39,217 nucleotides of DNA from NCBI GenBank assembly GCA_020854775.1, contig JAHKLZ010000050.1:1-39217 (forward strand), written 5' to 3'. Made by a program: the position numbers and the translations under genes. Shown here one piece after another: positions 11,445 through 39,217 of this stretch. How positions within the stretch are numbered: position 1 is the first letter of the stretch; each line of letters opens with the position of its first letter. This DNA is from Candidatus Woesearchaeota archaeon (GTDB lineage Archaea; Nanobdellota; Nanobdellia; Woesearchaeales; 21-14-0-10-32-9). Below the pieces are notes generated by a model. It was not told the DNA's origin, did no database searches, and saw only the letters and a program-made list of their open reading frames with translations.

Positions 11445-13178
11445 ATGAAAGGAATAAAAACAAAATTAGAAAACGCTGAAAAAACAAAGAAAAAATTATC
11501 AGAACTAAAAGTAATAAACACAGAATACAAAATAAAAAAAGACGACACACACATATATTTTCCAATAAAAAAAGAACCAAAACAACCAAACTTTGAAGTG
11601 ATAGAAACAAATTTTGAAAAAAATATACAAAAAGAAAAAGACTTAAAAAAAATATTAATAGAAAAATTAAGTTCACAAGAATTAGAAAAACTAAAAACTT
11701 CTTTCGACACAATAGGTGAAATAGCCATATTAGAAATAGACGAAGAATTAAGACAAAAAGAAAAAATAATAGCAGAAGCTCTTCTAAAAAGCCATAAAAA
11801 CATCAAAACAGTGCTAAGAAAAGACGATAAACACGACGGAGAATTCAGAACACAAAGAATGAAGTGGCTAACAGGAAAAAACACAAAAGAAGCCACACAC
11901 AAAGAAAATAACATAACACTAAAACTAAATGTTGAAACAGTTTATTTTTCACCTCGTCTATCTACCGAAAGAAAAAGAATCGCTGAACTAGTAAAAAAAG
12001 ACGAAGAAATACTAGTGATGTTCTCAGGATGCGCACCATACCCTTGTGTACTAGCAAAAAACACAGAAGCAAAACACATAACAGGAATAGAACTAAACCC
12101 GGAAGGACACAAATATGGAATAAAAAACTTAGAAATAAACAAGATAAAAAACGTTACTTTAATCAATGGAGACGTAAAAACCCAAACAACACAAATCTAT
12201 AAAAACATAATAGGACTAAAATCAAACATTCAAGATTTACAAACAAGACTAATACACGAACCAAAAATCATGGAACTACACTTATTCAAAGAAGACTTAC
12301 ATGAAAACAAAGAAACATTAGAAAAAACAATACAAGACCTAAAACAACAAAACCTAGAAGTTTTCATACACATGCCATTCCCAATAAACGGAGAAAAAAT
12401 CCTAGGAGAACAAAACTCAGAAAAAGCAATACAAGAACTAACAATTCTAGGAGAAATATGCAAAAAACACAACACAAAAGCAATAATACACATAACAGAA
12501 GGAAAACCACTAATAAAAGATGAACAAATAATAAATAATATAACAAGACTAAGAAATTACTACAACTATTTTTATTTTGAGAACTTAACAGCTCATTTTA
12601 ACACAACAGAGGAAATAATAAGAATAGGAAAAAAAGCAGGAATAAAAAACACTTGCATAGACATAGCTCATTTGTATAAAACTTACAAGAACAACGAAGA
12701 AATCATCAAACACATAAAAGAAATGCAAAAACACTACAACACCTATTTCCACTTATCAGACTCAGACGGAGAAAAAGACGCATTAAGCATAGGAACAGGA
12801 AACATAAACATAAATAACATATTACCTCTAGTAAATAAAGGAATAACAGAAGTAAAAAGCAAAAAAGAAGAAGATCCAAAAGAAATGATCGCGAGCTACA
12901 AAGAAATAATATCTAAAAAAAGAACATTCGACAGAATCATAATGCCACTACCAAAAAACGCGGAAGACTTCCTAGAAGATGCCCTAAACGTATCAAAAAA
13001 AGGAACCATAATACACTTTTACAACTTCTTACACGAAACAGAATTCGAAGAAGCAGAACATAAAGTCAAAGAAGCCTGCACGAAAAAAGGATTCAAATAC
13101 AAAAAAATAAAACTAATAAAAGCAGGACAACAATCACCTAGAACATACAGAATATGCCTAGATTTCCAAGTACAATAA
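11445..13178 (+). CDS. trm5: Trm5-type tRNA (guanine37-N1)-methyltransferase with an inserted TIM-barrel domain
   Basis: 577 residues, against about 330-340 for archaeal Trm5b. Residues 1-170 match Trm5 D1/D2: IKTKLENAEKTKKKLSE, GEIAILEI and VYFSPRLSTERKRI. The SAM-binding half follows (VMFSGCAPYP 191-200, GIELNP 214-219, NGDV 241-244). After NGDV, where Trm5 normally runs within a few residues into the catalytic IIMNLP strand, there are about 250 extra residues (~245-493). They carry xylose-isomerase/AP-endonuclease-2-like marks: VFIHMPF, FENLTAHF, CIDIAHLYKTY, YFHLSDSDG and IGTGNI. The methyltransferase then resumes with FDRIIMPLP (495-503), GTIIHFYNF and PRTYRICLDFQV. Trm5 methylates N1 of G37 and initiates wyosine-type modification. 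The inserted domain could add a second chemistry or bind tRNA; that is inference. A TATA box (AGATTTAAAC, 11411-11420) supports a leaderless start. Confidence 0.88.
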   Translation: MKGIKTKLENAEKTKKKLSELKVINTEYKIKKDDTHIYFPIKKEPKQPNFEVIETNFEKNIQKEKDLKKILIEKLSSQELEKLKTSFDTIGEIAILEIDEELRQKEKIIAEALLKSHKNIKTVLRKDDKHDGEFRTQRMKWLTGKNTKEATHKENNITLKLNVETVYFSPRLSTERKRIAELVKKDEEILVMFSGCAPYPCVLAKNTEAKHITGIELNPEGHKYGIKNLEINKIKNVTLINGDVKTQTTQIYKNIIGLKSNIQDLQTRLIHEPKIMELHLFKEDLHENKETLEKTIQDLKQQNLEVFIHMPFPINGEKILGEQNSEKAIQELTILGEICKKHNTKAIIHITEGKPLIKDEQIINNITRLRNYYNYFYFENLTAHFNTTEEIIRIGKKAGIKNTCIDIAHLYKTYKNNEEIIKHIKEMQKHYNTYFHLSDSDGEKDALSIGTGNININNILPLVNKGITEVKSKKEEDPKEMIASYKEIISKKRTFDRIIMPLPKNAEDFLEDALNVSKKGTIIHFYNFLHETEFEEAEHKVKEACTKKGFKYKKIKLIKAGQQSPRTYRICLDFQVQ

Positions 13179-13192
13179 AAATAATTAATAAT

Positions 13193-13204
13193 ATTTATAT
13201 AAAA
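13193..13204 (+). promoter_or_regulatory. TATA box of the GINS gene
   Basis: ATTTATATAAAA, centred about 27 bases before the ATG at 13226; predicts a leaderless mRNA. Confidence 0.55.
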
Positions 13205-13225
13205 AACAAACAATCCTAAAACATA

Positions 13226-13831
13226 ATGGCTGAAATAAAAATCACATACGAAACACTCTTCGACTTACTCAGACGAGAAAAAGGCAGAAACGAATTACAA
13301 GAATTAGAAAACACGTTCTACGAAGACGTAACTAATTACATAACAGAAAAAAATAAAGCACTAAACACAATAACTTCTAGAGGAGAAAAAGAAAAAATAA
13401 ACATACAACTAAAAAACATTAAAAAAATACTCAAAGAACTATACGAACTAAGAGAAAAAAAAATAATAAACCTAGCAACAAGCAAAGTAAGAACCAGCTC
13501 TAACCTAATAGATACAAGCAAATTACTAGAAAAAGAAAAAGAACTATATGAAGAAGCATGCACTCTATTATCCAAATACAAACAAGATATTCTAGAAAAA
13601 ATAACACAAACACAAGAACAAGAATACACACACGAAGAAACAAAAAAACCAGAGCCATCAACACAAGAAAAAAAACCAGAAAAAATCAAAATCAAAATAA
13701 TACACGACTTACCAAGATTCCTAGGAATAGACAAAGAAATCTACGGACCATACACAAAAGGACAAGAAATAGAAATAACACAAGAAACAGCACAACTCCT
13801 ACTAGACAAAAAAAGAGCAGAAAAAATCTGA
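13226..13831 (+). CDS. gins51: Archaeal GINS subunit (Gins51/Gins15-like)
   Basis: 201 residues. GINS joins MCM and GAN/RecJ-Cdc45 in the archaeal replicative helicase complex. The N-terminal helical A domain shows ITYETLFDLLRREKGRNELQ followed by an FYEDV segment, typical of the family. A charged linker (~135-155, rich in Glu, Lys, Pro, Thr) leads to a small beta B domain (IIHDLPRFLGIDKEIYGPYT and the QEIEITQETAQLLLDKKRAE ending). The A-then-B order marks the Gins51/15 type. It follows trm5 with its own TATA box. Its TGA stop is immediately adjacent to the stop of the 24-codon gene on the other strand. Confidence 0.85.
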   Translation: MAEIKITYETLFDLLRREKGRNELQELENTFYEDVTNYITEKNKALNTITSRGEKEKINIQLKNIKKILKELYELREKKIINLATSKVRTSSNLIDTSKLLEKEKELYEEACTLLSKYKQDILEKITQTQEQEYTHEETKKPEPSTQEKKPEKIKIKIIHDLPRFLGIDKEIYGPYTKGQEIEITQETAQLLLDKKRAEKI

Positions 13832-13906
13832 TTACTCCTCATCATCTTCAAAAAAAGAACTTAAATCCTTACTGTTAATCTTCGCTTTATAACTAATCTC
13901 TGCCAT
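13832..13906 (-). CDS. Possible 24-residue microprotein with acidic tail
   Basis: The minus strand encodes MAEISYKAKINSKDLSSFF followed by EDDEE and TAA. I call it because a TATA box (TTTTTATAAAGG, 13926-13937) sits about 26 bases before the ATG, exactly the leaderless spacing seen for other genes here, and because the frame ends flush against the GINS stop with no overlap. The first half is basic/polar and the last five residues acidic. I do not recognise it. It could also be the leader of a non-coding transcript. Confidence 0.4.
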   Translation of the reverse strand: MAEISYKAKINSKDLSSFFEDDEE

Positions 13907-14036
13907 AACAAAACATTCACACAACCCTTTATAAAAACTATTGTTCTAGAAAAACACCAACAAAAAAATAACCATTAAAAAATAATAAAGAAAAAAAAGA
14001 AAAAACTACGCTCAAAACAAAAAAAAGAAACAAATC

Positions 14037-14117
14037 TTATTTCTTTTTCTTAGCTGGAGCTTTTTTAGCTGGCTTTTTAGCTGGAGCCTTCTTTGCTACT
14101 TTCTTTTTTGCTGCCAT
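14037..14117 (-). CDS. 26-residue Lys/Ala/Pro-rich peptide resembling a histone H1 tail
   Basis: The minus strand encodes MAAKKKVAKKAPAKKPAKKA then PAKKKK and a TAA stop. The PAKK/KAPAKK pattern resembles the C-terminal tails of histone H1 and of bacterial H1-like proteins (HctB, AlgP type), which bind DNA or RNA without a folded domain. Expression signals are strong for so small a gene: GAGGTG Shine-Dalgarno (14126-14131) eight bases before the ATG and a TATA box AGTATATAAA (14155-14164). The peptide is almost all Lys, Ala, Pro, so a nucleic-acid-associated role is likely but inferred. It is flanked by long T-rich runs on the same strand after the stop, suitable as a terminator. Confidence 0.7.
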   Translation of the reverse strand: MAAKKKVAKKAPAKKPAKKAPAKKKK

Positions 14118-14124
14118 AGTATAA

Positions 14125-14164
14125 ACACCTCGTAAAACATTTGCGCTTTATTTATTTATATACT
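14125..14164 (-). promoter_or_regulatory. Promoter and Shine-Dalgarno of the H1-tail-like microgene
   Basis: Minus-strand AGTATATAAA at 14155-14164, then GAGGTG at 14126-14131. With initiation about 26 bases after the TATA centre, the leader is about 16 bases and holds little beyond the ribosome site. Confidence 0.6.
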
Positions 14165-14239
14165 TTTTGTTTTTTAAAACCTAAAAAACAAACAAAAACA
14201 AAAAAGAACAAACCAAACAACTCCTAATACCAAAAAAAA

Positions 14240-14641
14240 TCAAGAACCAGGATTACAAAGCATATACTGCTTAACCAAGCTACTAAACGCAGAACTCAAA
14301 GCAAACTCCTCTCTTTTTCTCCTAAAAAAACCATAACTCTTAGGACTAAAAATTTTACCAACTTTAAAACTAATCTCGCCAATCTTATAATAATCACTAT
14401 TATTAACAGCGATACTCAAAGAATCCTCAAACTTCTCCTTTAAATAATCACCAACACCAAAATTAATATTAGCATGATAAGGATGCCTACTAACCAAATC
14501 CTCAAAACCAAAAAAAACATCATCCAAAGATTTCAAAACAACATAATCAACACCAGAATCAGAAGACAAAAAATCCATATTAGAAACCAAAGTCCTCTCA
14601 ATATGATCATAATCTCTCTTCCCCAAAGATTTTCCAAACAT
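14240..14641 (-). CDS. Uncharacterised 133-residue protein
   Basis: I do not recognise this protein. It starts MFGKSLGKRDYDHIERTL if the ATG at 14641 is used, which I prefer to the ATG at 14665 because a TATA-like TTAAATATTAA is about 25 bases upstream of 14641. No signal peptide. Contains SRHPYHANINFGVGDYL, a central beta-like segment KIGEISFKVGKIF, and a basic patch SYGFFRRKREE. Codon use fits the minus-strand genes. Cytosolic; function unknown. Confidence 0.55.
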   Translation of the reverse strand: MFGKSLGKRDYDHIERTLVSNMDFLSSDSGVDYVVLKSLDDVFFGFEDLVSRHPYHANINFGVGDYLKEKFEDSLSIAVNNSDYYKIGEISFKVGKIFSPKSYGFFRRKREEFALSSAFSSLVKQYMLCNPGS

Positions 14642-14751
14642 AAATAAAAGATAACAAAACAACAATTAATATTTAACTAAAAAAAAATCGAAACAAACAC
14701 GGAAAAAACCGAAAAAACTTGAAGGAACCATCTAAAAAAAAATCAATAAGA

Positions 14752-14759
14752 TTTATAAA
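14752..14759 (+). promoter_or_regulatory. TATA box of the L1-P0-P1 operon
   Basis: TTTATAAA, centred about 66 bases before the rpl1 start. Transcription is expected near 14780, leaving a leader of about 40 bases that contains the hairpin and the Shine-Dalgarno. Confidence 0.6.
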
Positions 14760-14784
14760 TCAAAACCAATTCCTGAGAATCTAA

Positions 14785-14813
14785 CCCGTAAGCGACTACT
14801 TATAGTAGGAGGG
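14785..14813 (+). promoter_or_regulatory. Structured leader of the L1 operon, candidate L1 autoregulatory site
   Basis: Within the leader, CTACT (14796-14800) pairs with AGTAG (14804-14808) around a three-base loop, and CCC (14785-14787) can pair with GGG (14811-14813). An internal loop is formed by GTAAGCGA on one side and GAG on the other. The structure includes the Shine-Dalgarno GGAGGG (14808-14813), so closing it would hide the ribosome site. Archaeal L1 is known to repress its own operon by binding an mRNA mimic of its 23S rRNA site. Identity as that mimic is inference. Confidence 0.4.
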
Positions 14814-14821
14814 AAAAAAAC

Positions 14822-15469
14822 ATGAAAAAAGAATCATTAATAAATGCAATAACCGAACTGCGAAAATCAGAAAACAAAAAGAAATTCGCACAATCATTCG
14901 ACCTAATAATAAACTTAAAAGATTTAAATCTTAAAAACCCAGAAGAACAAGTCGATTTCTTCACATCATTAAAATATTCAACTTCTAAAATAAAAGTCGC
15001 AGCACTAGTAGGACAAGAACTAAGCGACTCAGCAAAAATATGCGACAAAGTAATAAAACAAACAGAATTTGACAATTACAAAGACAAAAAAACAGCAAAA
15101 AAATTAGCAACAGAATATGACTTCTTCATAGCACAAGCAGACATAATGCCAAAAGTAGCACAAGCATTCGGAAGAGTACTAGGAACAAGAGGAAAAATGC
15201 CAAACCCAAAACTAGGAAGTATATTACCAGGAAAAGCACCAGTAGAACCACTATACAAAAAATTACAAAGCACAGTAAGACTAACAGCAAAAAAAACACC
15301 GGTGATACAAGTAAAAATAGGCAATGAAAATATGAAAGACGAAGAAATAATAGAAAACGCACTAATAATATATGACCAAATAATACATCATTTACCAAAA
15401 GAAAGATCAAACATAAAAAACGCGATGCTCAAACTAACAATGAGCAAACCAATAAAAATAGACATATAG
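14822..15469 (+). CDS. rpl1: Large ribosomal subunit protein uL1
   Basis: 215 residues, normal for archaeal L1, which forms the mobile stalk next to the E site. Recognisable segments are FFIAQADIMPKVAQAFGRVL and LGTRGKMPNPKLG, the rRNA-contacting signature, then STVRLTAKKTPVIQVKIG. A strong GGAGGG precedes the ATG by eight bases. First gene of the L1-P0-P1 operon; uL11, often at the head of this operon in other archaea, is absent from the window. In archaea L1 also represses its operon, see the leader. Confidence 0.96.
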   Translation: MKKESLINAITELRKSENKKKFAQSFDLIINLKDLNLKNPEEQVDFFTSLKYSTSKIKVAALVGQELSDSAKICDKVIKQTEFDNYKDKKTAKKLATEYDFFIAQADIMPKVAQAFGRVLGTRGKMPNPKLGSILPGKAPVEPLYKKLQSTVRLTAKKTPVIQVKIGNENMKDEEIIENALIIYDQIIHHLPKERSNIKNAMLKLTMSKPIKIDI

Positions 15470-15480
15470 GTTGATTAATA

Positions 15481-16341
15481 ATGACTCAAAAAATTCAAGC
15501 ACACGTCTCAGAAATAAAAAAACAAGTAGTACAAGAATTCGTACAACTAATAAAAGAACACCCAGTAATAGCAATAGTAGACGTAGAAAACTTACCAGCT
15601 AAACAATTAATGGACATGAGATCATCCCTAAGAGGAAAAGCTCATCTAAGAATGACCAAACACAGATTAATGAACTTAGCACTAGAACAATCAGGAAAAA
15701 AAGGAATAGAACAACTAGCAGAACACTTCAGAGGAATGCCAGCAATGTTATTCTCAAAAGACAATCCTTTTACATTATTCAAAATACTAAAAAAAAGTAA
15801 ATCCGCAGCACCAATAAAAGCAGGACAAATAACTCCTAAAGACGTACTAGTAAAAGCAGGAGGAACAAACTTCGCACCAGGACCAATAATAGGAGAATTA
15901 GGAGCTTTTGGAATAAAAGCAGGAATAGAAGGCGGAAAAGTAGCAATCAAAGAAGATAAAATCGTAGCAAAAGAAGGAGATATAATAAACGCTAAACTAG
16001 CAGGAATACTTCAAAGACTAGAAATATACCCTATGGAGATAGGACTAAATTTAACAGCGGCATACGAAAACGGACAAATACTAACAAAATCAATACTAGA
16101 CATAGACGAAGACGCATTCCTAGAATCAATAAAACAAGCATACACAGACGCATTCAAACTAACACTAGGACTAAGAATACCAACAAAAGAAAATATAAAC
16201 ATGCTTATACAAAACGCACACAAAGATGCATCAGCATTAGCAATAGAACAAATGATAATGACTTCAGAGAACAAGGAACAAATACTTGCAAAAGCTGAAG
16301 CTCAAGCAACGAGTTTAAAAAATAAAACAGAAACACAATAA
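15481..16341 (+). CDS. rpl10: Large ribosomal subunit protein uL10 (P0)
   Basis: 286 residues. P0 anchors the P1 dimers that recruit translational GTPases. N-terminal rRNA-binding part shows [18 protein letters not shown]-like sequence (residues ~20-40) and [13 protein letters not shown]; the central insertion domain follows ([37 protein letters not shown]). Helices for P1 dimers are at ~215-265. It is shorter than many archaeal P0 proteins, and its C-terminus, [10 protein letters not shown], lacks the acidic hinge and GLF-type tail shared with P1 that archaeal P0 usually carries. GGTTGAT upstream serves as the ribosome site. Second gene of the operon, 11 bases after rpl1. Confidence 0.94.
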
Positions 16342-16367
16342 ACTCAAAAGAATGGAGGAATAAAAAA

Positions 16368-16667
16368 ATGGAATACATATACAGCGCAATGTTACTACAC
16401 AAAGCAGGACAAAAGATCGATGAAGCTTCTTTAAAAAAAGTACTAGAAGCAGCAGGCGTAAAAGCTGAAGAAGGAAGAATAAAATCCTTAGTAGCAGCAC
16501 TAGACGGCGTAGACATAGAAGAAGCAATCAAATCAGCAGTTCTAACCAGCGCAGCAGCTCCAGTAGCAGCAACCGAAACAGCGGCTCCAGAAGCAAAAAA
16601 AGAAGAAAAGAAAGAAGAACCTAAAGAAGAAGAAGCAGCTGCAGGATTAGGCGCACTATTCGGATAA
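16368..16667 (+). CDS. rpl12: Large ribosomal subunit protein P1 (archaeal L12)
   Basis: 99 residues. N-terminal dimerisation and P0-binding helices ([20 protein letters not shown]), an Ala-rich hinge, a Glu/Lys-rich acidic segment, and the C-terminal GLGALFG, which contacts elongation factors. GGAGG lies about ten bases before the ATG. Last gene of the operon, followed by several T runs that look like a terminator. Confidence 0.96.
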
Positions 16668-16671
16668 AAAC

Positions 16672-16702
16672 TTTTTTTAATTTTTTTTTAAACCTTTTTT
16701 TT
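16672..16702 (+). terminator. Poly-T terminator after the ribosomal operon
   Basis: Three T runs (16672-16678, 16681-16689, 16695-16702) directly after the P1 stop, the archaeal U-rich terminator form. The last run also begins the TATA-like stretch for the next gene. Confidence 0.55.
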
Positions 16703-16724
16703 AATAATAAATTAGTGAACAATC

Positions 16725-17609
16725 ATGACTGAGAACAAGGAAACAAAAGAAGTAGTCGAGAAGATGAAACAAACCGGAGATGAAGTAACACTTCTCAAAG
16801 AAAAATTAACATATCTCAACACAGAAAAAGAGCAATGGTTCTCAAAGAAATCAGAATTCTCAGATTTAATAAAGAAAAATATTAACGACATAAAAGAACT
16901 AAAAAATAAAAGAAACGAATTAACAACAAAAGTCAAAATACTAAAAAAAGAAAGAGATGAACTGAACAAAGAAATATCTGACAACGTAAAAGTCATAGTA
17001 AAAGAAAAAAAAGACGTGCAACCCTTACCAGAGATAAAAGGTAAAAAAATAATACCTGGCAAAATAAAAAAAGAAATAGAAGACCTAGAATTCAAATTAC
17101 AAACAGAACCAATGGGATTCGAAAAAGAACAAAGACTAAGAAAACAAATAAAGAATCAACAAAAAATATTAAACGAATTCGAAGGCCAATTTAAAGCAAC
17201 AAAAGAATTAAGAGAAGTATCAAACAAAACATCATCACTCAAAAAAAGAGCTAACAAAATACACAAAGAAATACAAGACGTAGCACAAGAAAGTCAAAAC
17301 ATTCACGAAGAACTAATCAAAAAATCAAAAGAAATAGACGAACTAAAAATAAAAGAAGAAGAAGCATACAAAAAATTCCTAGACTTAAAAGAAGAATTCA
17401 ACAAAATAAACCAAGAATTACAAGACAAACACAAAGTATTCTACGAAAACAAACAAAAAAATAAAGAAGCAAAAGTAGCAGTAGCAAAGAAAAAAGCAAA
17501 AGAAGAAGAAAAAACACTAAAACAAAAAGCAAAAGAAGTAGAAGAAAAAATATCAAAAAGAAAAAAACTCACAACTGAAGACTTACTAATCATTCAACGC
17601 GGCGGATGA
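16725..17609 (+). CDS. Archaeal coiled-coil protein (COG1340 type)
   Basis: 294 residues, nearly all predicted coiled coil with a high content of Lys and Glu and no membrane segment. The mid-protein KIKKEIEDLEFKLQTEPMGF and KEQRLRKQIK segment and the C-terminal KLTTEDLLIIQRGG match the widespread archaeal coiled-coil family COG1340. Its biochemical role is not established to my knowledge. Follows the ribosomal operon with its own weak promoter. Cytosolic. Confidence 0.8.
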   Translation: MTENKETKEVVEKMKQTGDEVTLLKEKLTYLNTEKEQWFSKKSEFSDLIKKNINDIKELKNKRNELTTKVKILKKERDELNKEISDNVKVIVKEKKDVQPLPEIKGKKIIPGKIKKEIEDLEFKLQTEPMGFEKEQRLRKQIKNQQKILNEFEGQFKATKELREVSNKTSSLKKRANKIHKEIQDVAQESQNIHEELIKKSKEIDELKIKEEEAYKKFLDLKEEFNKINQELQDKHKVFYENKQKNKEAKVAVAKKKAKEEEKTLKQKAKEVEEKISKRKKLTTEDLLIIQRGG

Positions 17610-17624
17610 ATTTTTTCTAAAAAA

Positions 17625-18185
17625 TTAAGAAAACAAACTCATCAAATCAACATAAATCTTAAAAATTCGCTTATCACCAAGACGAGAACCTAATTTTTTC
17701 TGAATCTCAGAATAATACCAAAAAACTTCTTCACGAGAACCATTAAGCTTACCCCAAATATCAACACCACACAACAAATCCTCTCTAATAGATAACAAAG
17801 TAGAAACCTTATCAGCACAAAAAACAAGAAGCTCATCATCACTAGCAGAATCAAGCTTAGCAATAGAAAGAGACTTACGCACCTTCCAAGAACTCACAAG
17901 CTCTTCCTTAGTAGAATCATGATTATTACCCAGTTCAGTACAAAACTTAACCAAAGAAAAAACGCGCTCACCAAACTCCTCCCTAAGACCATCCTCAGAA
18001 TAAGAAGTATCCTCCAAAGTATCATGAAGAATACCAGCACAAATAACTTCATCATCACTCGTTTCATACATCAAATACTTAGCAGTATCAACCAAATGAA
18101 CAAAATAAGGAGCACCATTACCCTTCCTAACCTGAGACTTATGCAAATCATAAGCCCTAACCAAAGCGCGCTGAATTAAATCCAT
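17625..18185 (-). CDS. HD-domain protein resembling small alarmone hydrolases (MESH1/SpoT hydrolase type)
   Basis: 186 residues, close to the ~180 of MESH1. HD metal residues are H30 (PYFVHL), H54-D55 (ILHDTLEDT) and D125 (CADKVSTLL); E58 and D59 are the ED pair needed by (p)ppGpp pyrophosphohydrolases. RKGNGAPYFVH and FGERVFSLVKFCTELG are also typical. No synthetase domain is attached. By family it would remove the 3' pyrophosphate of (p)ppGpp, or act on NADPH as reported for animal MESH1; the real substrate in an archaeon is open. TATA-like AAATATTTTAAAG about 28 bases upstream supports the start at 18185. Confidence 0.8.
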   Translation of the reverse strand: MDLIQRALVRAYDLHKSQVRKGNGAPYFVHLVDTAKYLMYETSDDEVICAGILHDTLEDTSYSEDGLREEFGERVFSLVKFCTELGNNHDSTKEELVSSWKVRKSLSIAKLDSASDDELLVFCADKVSTLLSIREDLLCGVDIWGKLNGSREEVFWYYSEIQKKLGSRLGDKRIFKIYVDLMSLFS

Positions 18186-38945: not shown

Positions 38946-39003
38946 AACAAAAAACATAACCTTTTATTTATTTAAGCTTTTTCATTACAAAAACACAAAA
39001 AAA

Positions 39004-39217
39004 CTAAGACTCAAATTTACCTTCCAACTTCTCTAAACGCTCACTCAACTCCTTAACAGCCTCAATCAAAGGAGCCACGAGGTTTCCGTATTGTATTGAT
39101 TTGTGGCTGTTTTTTGGGGTGTTTACTATTTCAGGAAATACTTTTTCTACGTCTTGTGCTATTAGTCCTATTGATTCTTCGTTGTTTTGTTTCCATTTGA
39201 ATTTTATTCCTTCAATT
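39004..39217 (-). CDS. S74 intramolecular chaperone domain, C-terminal end of a larger protein (5' end outside window)
   Basis: The last 70 residues are visible: GIKFKWKQNNEESIGLIAQD, VEKVFPEIV, then SIQYGNLVAPLIEAVKELSE and RLEKLEGKFES with a TAG stop. This is the C-terminus of the peptidase S74/endosialidase-chaperone domain, which trimerises tail-fibre-like or surface beta-helix proteins and then cuts itself off. The parent protein lies to the right of the window. Codon use changes inside the gene near 39080: the last ~25 codons use GTT, TTG, GAG, AAG, CGT, like the window's other minus-strand genes, while the preceding ones use ATA, CAA, GGA, GCA, like its plus-strand genes. Confidence 0.85.
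   Translation of the reverse strand, partial: IEGIKFKWKQNNEESIGLIAQDVEKVFPEIVNTPKNSHKSIQYGNLVAPLIEAVKELSERLEKLEGKFES

Follow-up and report, generated by a model that had tools for sequence, protein, structure and literature searches.

The abrupt change of strand composition near the right end of the window (all 39,217 bases of contig C50, from a 1.18-Mb Woesearchaeota genome in 58 contigs) is quite probably the recombination boundary of a mosaic gene encoding a protein with an S74 domain; the contig would end shortly afterwards as the sequence beyond the boundary is present twice. On the evidence described below, the flip is a local patch made up of an HTH gene and the body of the S74 gene. 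The features of C50, together with one gene of contig C4 used for synteny, are as follows.

C50 1–141, plus strand: overlap inside a saccharopine-dehydrogenase ORF, shared with the right end of contig C44 (exact 141-base dovetail)
C50 36222–37244, plus strand: ScpB gene (PF04079, 131 bits), the synteny anchor
C50 37860–38957, minus strand: 365-aa neighbour gene in native minus style (codon LLR −666 bits over 366 codons)
C50 39004–39216, minus strand: visible part of the S74 ORF, running from beyond the contig end to the stop at 39004
C50 39004–39076, minus strand: putative resident S74 tail, the last 23 codons and the stop, with G/T-ending codons (minus style, native to the locality; LLR −58 bits)
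C50 39077–39217, minus strand: part of the S74 domain with plus-style, A/C-ending codons, identical to C44 1–141 (first 46 visible codons, LLR +97 bits)
C4 1771–2637, minus strand: TtcA-like gene, the synteny partner of ScpB

The composition flip and the S74 gene

An earlier note on this DNA, made from its letters, gave plus-strand counts of A21 C20 T16 G3 for positions 39001–39060 and T29 G16 A10 C5 for positions 39081–39140, and proposed that codon style flips in the middle of one domain at about 39080. The counts are exact on recount, and the flip itself is borne out, as the ORF is open across it and the best change point of codon style is at 39078 (shuffle p = 5e-5). The amino-keto skew of the last 141 bases of C50 is −0.39; the other 141-base windows of the contig average +0.33 (sd 0.12), and none is as low. 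Raw contrasts this large over 60 bases do occur elsewhere in C50, in 41 overlapping windows, with the biggest near 13955. This other sharp composition patch of the contig is due to the amino acids of a tiny gene-like ORF at about 14036–14118 on the minus strand, whose predicted peptide is rich in Lys and Ala (KKAPAKK-type).

Codon style was scored with a strand-specific, amino-acid-corrected model trained on 113 plus-strand and 72 minus-strand genes. The model assigns 185 of 185 genes to the correct strand, the same genes having been used for training. The two styles are far apart: CTA makes up 41% of Leu codons in plus-strand genes versus 2% in minus-strand genes, and GGT makes up 7% versus 81% of Gly codons. 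The 365-aa neighbour gene, for which a Pfam profile search gave no family, served as the control for the composition patch. None of the 53,543 windows taken from other genes, over about 225 kb of replichore, has a flip as strong as that of the S74 ORF. Chance as the cause of the flip is ruled out by the skew windows and the codon-model test.

The ORF matches PF13884 (Peptidase_S74) with 32.2 bits against a curated cut-off of 22, over profile positions 24–57 of 58. The domain, with its predicted terminal helix, occupies the C-terminus and is followed by the stop at 39004. S74 relatives match the ORF's C-terminus over its full length, many of them aligning to residues 65–70. The protein also matches phage tail PHROGs, and the 5′ part of the gene contains GIGTTTP-type repeats. 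In these three respects, namely a C-terminal S74 domain above the cut-off, phage tail PHROG matches, and GIGTTTP-type repeats, the protein resembles the S74 phage tail fibres and tailspikes. Unlike those, the gene has cellular genes around it and belongs to the chromosome of an archaeal cell. Proteins of C50 (FEN1/XPG, TYW2/Trm5 type), with MCM on the joined contig C44, point to an archaeon. The likeliest role of the S74 protein is that of a trimeric, fibre-like component of a surface or a virus tail, ending in a self-folding S74 domain. In contrast to S74 proteins with a visible autoproteolysis site, the N-terminal part of the domain (profile positions 1–23, including the autoproteolysis serine region) falls here in a repeat unitig that is absent from the bin. 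A third, divergent S74 protein of 470 aa is encoded at the start of contig C18 (335–1747, minus strand) and has an N-terminal signal-peptide-like stretch.

The repeated tract and the contig ends

The earlier note had suggested looking for another S74 copy with the same end sequence, and there is one: the last 141 bases of C50 are the first 141 bases of C44, inverted, with identity at 141 of 141 positions and divergence from the very next base. The identity ends at 39077, one base from the codon change point at 39078. C44 and C50 are joined at their other ends, where a single saccharopine-dehydrogenase ORF crosses the 141-base overlap, so that the joined stretch of about 111.8 kb carries inverted S74 copies at both ends. 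On the far side of the repeat, contigs C2 and C4 each begin inside an S74-type gene, of which they carry the 5′ part, and their terminal 141 bases are identical. The encoded proteins share 70% of their residues overall, and the last ~80 residues are the same in both (100% identity). The S74 gene is therefore known here from its two ends, while its middle falls in the missing repeat unitig. What can be seen is an inverted paralogue pair, that is, an identical tract, its middle unseen, bounded on both sides by divergent sequence.

Comparison of the readable contig ends revealed five pairs with exactly 141 bases in common. Two are forks (the left ends of C2 and C4; the left end of C44 and the right end of C50), and three are dovetails (the right end of C44 with the left end of C50; the right end of C5 with the left end of C18; the left end of C7 with the right end of C19). 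A few other pairs of contig ends have 31 to 139 bases in common. Five pairs at exactly 141 bases are the signature of de Bruijn assembly at k = 141. MEGAHIT usually has a largest k of 141, and k141 appears in the record names of the S74 relatives matched; MEGAHIT was probably the assembler. The repeat unitig between the two forks is absent from the bin contigs read. The smallest contig kept has 2,522 bases, and the unitig may fall below an apparent bin cut-off of about 2.5 kb or be one of 17 small contigs outside the comparison. The exactly 141 bases common to several contig ends are what a de Bruijn assembly leaves where it breaks at repeats. What differs in this case is that composition, too, changes at the break, and for a real biological reason. 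The end of the contig at 39217, in the interior of the S74 gene, is thus explained by the presence in two copies of the sequence beyond the flip. The exact breakpoint could have been shifted by assembly within the repeat.

Contig order and alternative explanations

The contig that follows C50 can be proposed from synteny. In 8 of 10 relatives from the family, ScpB lies next to a TtcA-like gene in convergent orientation. Here, ScpB is on C50 (plus strand) and the TtcA-like gene is on C4 (minus strand), which puts C4 next on the right. Primase and MCM are on one contig in three relatives (G001, G002, and G003); here, primase is on C2 and MCM on C44, which agrees with C2 preceding C44. The relative orientation of primase and MCM differs from that in the three relatives. 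A diphthamide-synthase-like gene on C2 was also considered as a synteny marker, but its conservation is too weak to help. Some 400 bases from the S74 gene of C2, a 138-base segment (1207–1344) matches a 71-position tRNA model and is probably an intron-containing tRNA; ARAGORN in its bacterial setting gave no tRNA there.

In the order C2 reversed, C44, C50, C4, the skew is positive throughout, forming one replichore-like block of about 225 kb in which the plus strand is rich in A and C regardless of the coding strand (for C2, skew was computed up to its last 5.9 kb). The patch is the exception. C4 is keto-rich over about bases 1–930 and amino-rich thereafter, the return to A/C-rich sequence falling at about 930–950. 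Its codon LLRs follow the same course: +289 for the 5′ part of the S74 gene and +61 for the HTH gene, both on the minus strand, and −461 for the gene that follows. The earlier note had named a skew that returns shortly to the right as the sign of a local patch, and on C4 it does so at about 950 bases. Within this otherwise strongly A/C-rich contig, a stretch at about 12000–18000 has weak skew (+0.03 to +0.09) and is possibly recently acquired DNA.

This return of the skew bears on each of the readings that the earlier note had offered. A replication origin at about 39080 (or a terminus) would suit the local direction of skew, A/C-rich to the left and G/T-rich to the right on the plus strand. 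The skew is back on C4 after ~950 bases, and its sign is the same on reversed C2, C44, C50, and C4, so that no change of sign lasts for many kb; if C4 follows C50, the patch is local and an origin is refuted. We regard an origin or terminus as highly improbable. A second reading is that the ~112-kb C44–C50 segment has been inverted by a crossover between the S74 copies, with joins of C2 to C50 and of C4 to C44, and with 39077 as the inversion breakpoint. The inverted, identical repeat copies at the two ends of the segment speak for such an event, as does the fact that C2, in A/C style, would then join reversed C50, in G/T style, exactly at the flip. It would, however, break up both the ScpB–TtcA neighbourhood and the primase–MCM neighbourhood; the skew would change sign at both ends of the segment, whereas it is continuous in the other arrangement; and the style change inside C4 at ~950 would need a separate explanation. 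With C4 after C50, the skew returns and the ScpB–TtcA order is kept, which is not what an inversion breakpoint would give, and we consider the inversion unlikely. Thus, recombination between inverted S74 paralogues, as the earlier note put it, survives in part: there are two inverted genes, identical up to the flip, but neither skew nor gene order points to a net 112-kb inversion, and local gene replacement or conversion fits better.

The suggestion of an assembly join at a repeated domain fares similarly, since it accounts for the contig end and for an overlap equal to k, while the mosaic itself looks real. In its strong form, the last 141 bases would belong to another locus, an erroneous edge of the graph having linked them to C50. 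In favour of this, the stretch has the length of exactly one assembler k and recurs unchanged at the end of another contig; yet assemblers normally leave the same k-mer on both branches of a fork when a repeat is genuine, and the ORF stays a well-aligned S74 C-terminus across the join. Moreover, C4, which was placed by synteny, is independently off-style in unique sequence, in the HTH gene and the 5′ part of the S74 gene. The same foreign style is thus found on the other side of the repeat, and it is this that makes the mosaic look real. We give a pure artefact little credence. It is also conceivable, though we think it quite doubtful, that the inverted S74 tracts act as a switch in which a crossover flips the ~112 kb and swaps the C-termini of the fibre genes and the genes downstream, both isomers being present in the population.

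A probable mosaic gene and its likely history

The patch on C50 and C4 is a cassette in opposite-strand style; within the S74 domain its reading frame continues into a tail in local style. We suggest that an HTH–S74 cassette, its codons shaped on the opposite strand, moved here reversed, and that recombination within the S74 domain joined it to a resident S74 gene, of which the last 23 codons would remain. Gene conversion from the C2/C44 paralogue, about 112 kb away and inverted, would later have made the central part identical. On the simplest account, a resident gene would have taken up an S74 cassette by homologous recombination and later been homogenised by the paralogue; both the recombination with the resident and the direction of conversion are our reading of the codon styles and the identities. 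The S74 copy of C2/C44 has its body in native style, and on C44 its tail and the next gene are neutral. This neutral style indicates that the donor was not a simple intact A/C gene.

The arrangement is like known cases of inverted paralogues that underwent gene conversion or homologous recombination, in having an identical tract with sharp ends within divergent paralogues. It differs in that strand-specific codon style reveals the event in addition to identity, and in that the whole cassette, HTH and S74, is off-style beyond the identical tract. The literature searched on S74 recombination and on contig overlaps of 141 bases offered no paper of direct use.

The start of C44 (1–1398) contains the S74 tail, then a glycosyltransferase-like gene (phrog_1574) of neutral style, and then a phrog_1401 gene. 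The neutral style and the two PHROG matches hint at virus-related DNA, which suggests a recent arrival of such DNA beside the C44 S74 copy, near MCM. A search for a contractile system found no tail sheath (PF04984) in the genome, and the viral collection held no exact match of 32 or 35 bases to the identical tract.

Strong compositional asymmetry of the strands is known from Borrelia and Chlamydia. As in those bacteria, the genes of the two strands have separable codon usage here, but in an archaeal genome and to a degree much stronger than in its own relatives. Strand-dependent codon usage is extreme in this genome: third-codon skew reaches ±0.7, with opposite signs on the two strands. It is stronger than in the sampled genomes of the same genus and family, in which third-codon skew is mostly within about ±0.4 and in many stretches has a similar sign on both strands; the strongest asymmetry among them is +0.50 and −0.38, on contig C8 of G003. 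It follows that most of the relatives would hardly reveal a mosaic of this kind.

With codon usage so strand-specific, style alone can orient recombination within one gene and place it to within about one codon. The case also cautions against taking every flip of composition at the end of a contig for an origin, as it can instead mark the boundary of a repeat. The finding is one of ordinary recombination, visible through an unusually strong strand-specific codon bias.
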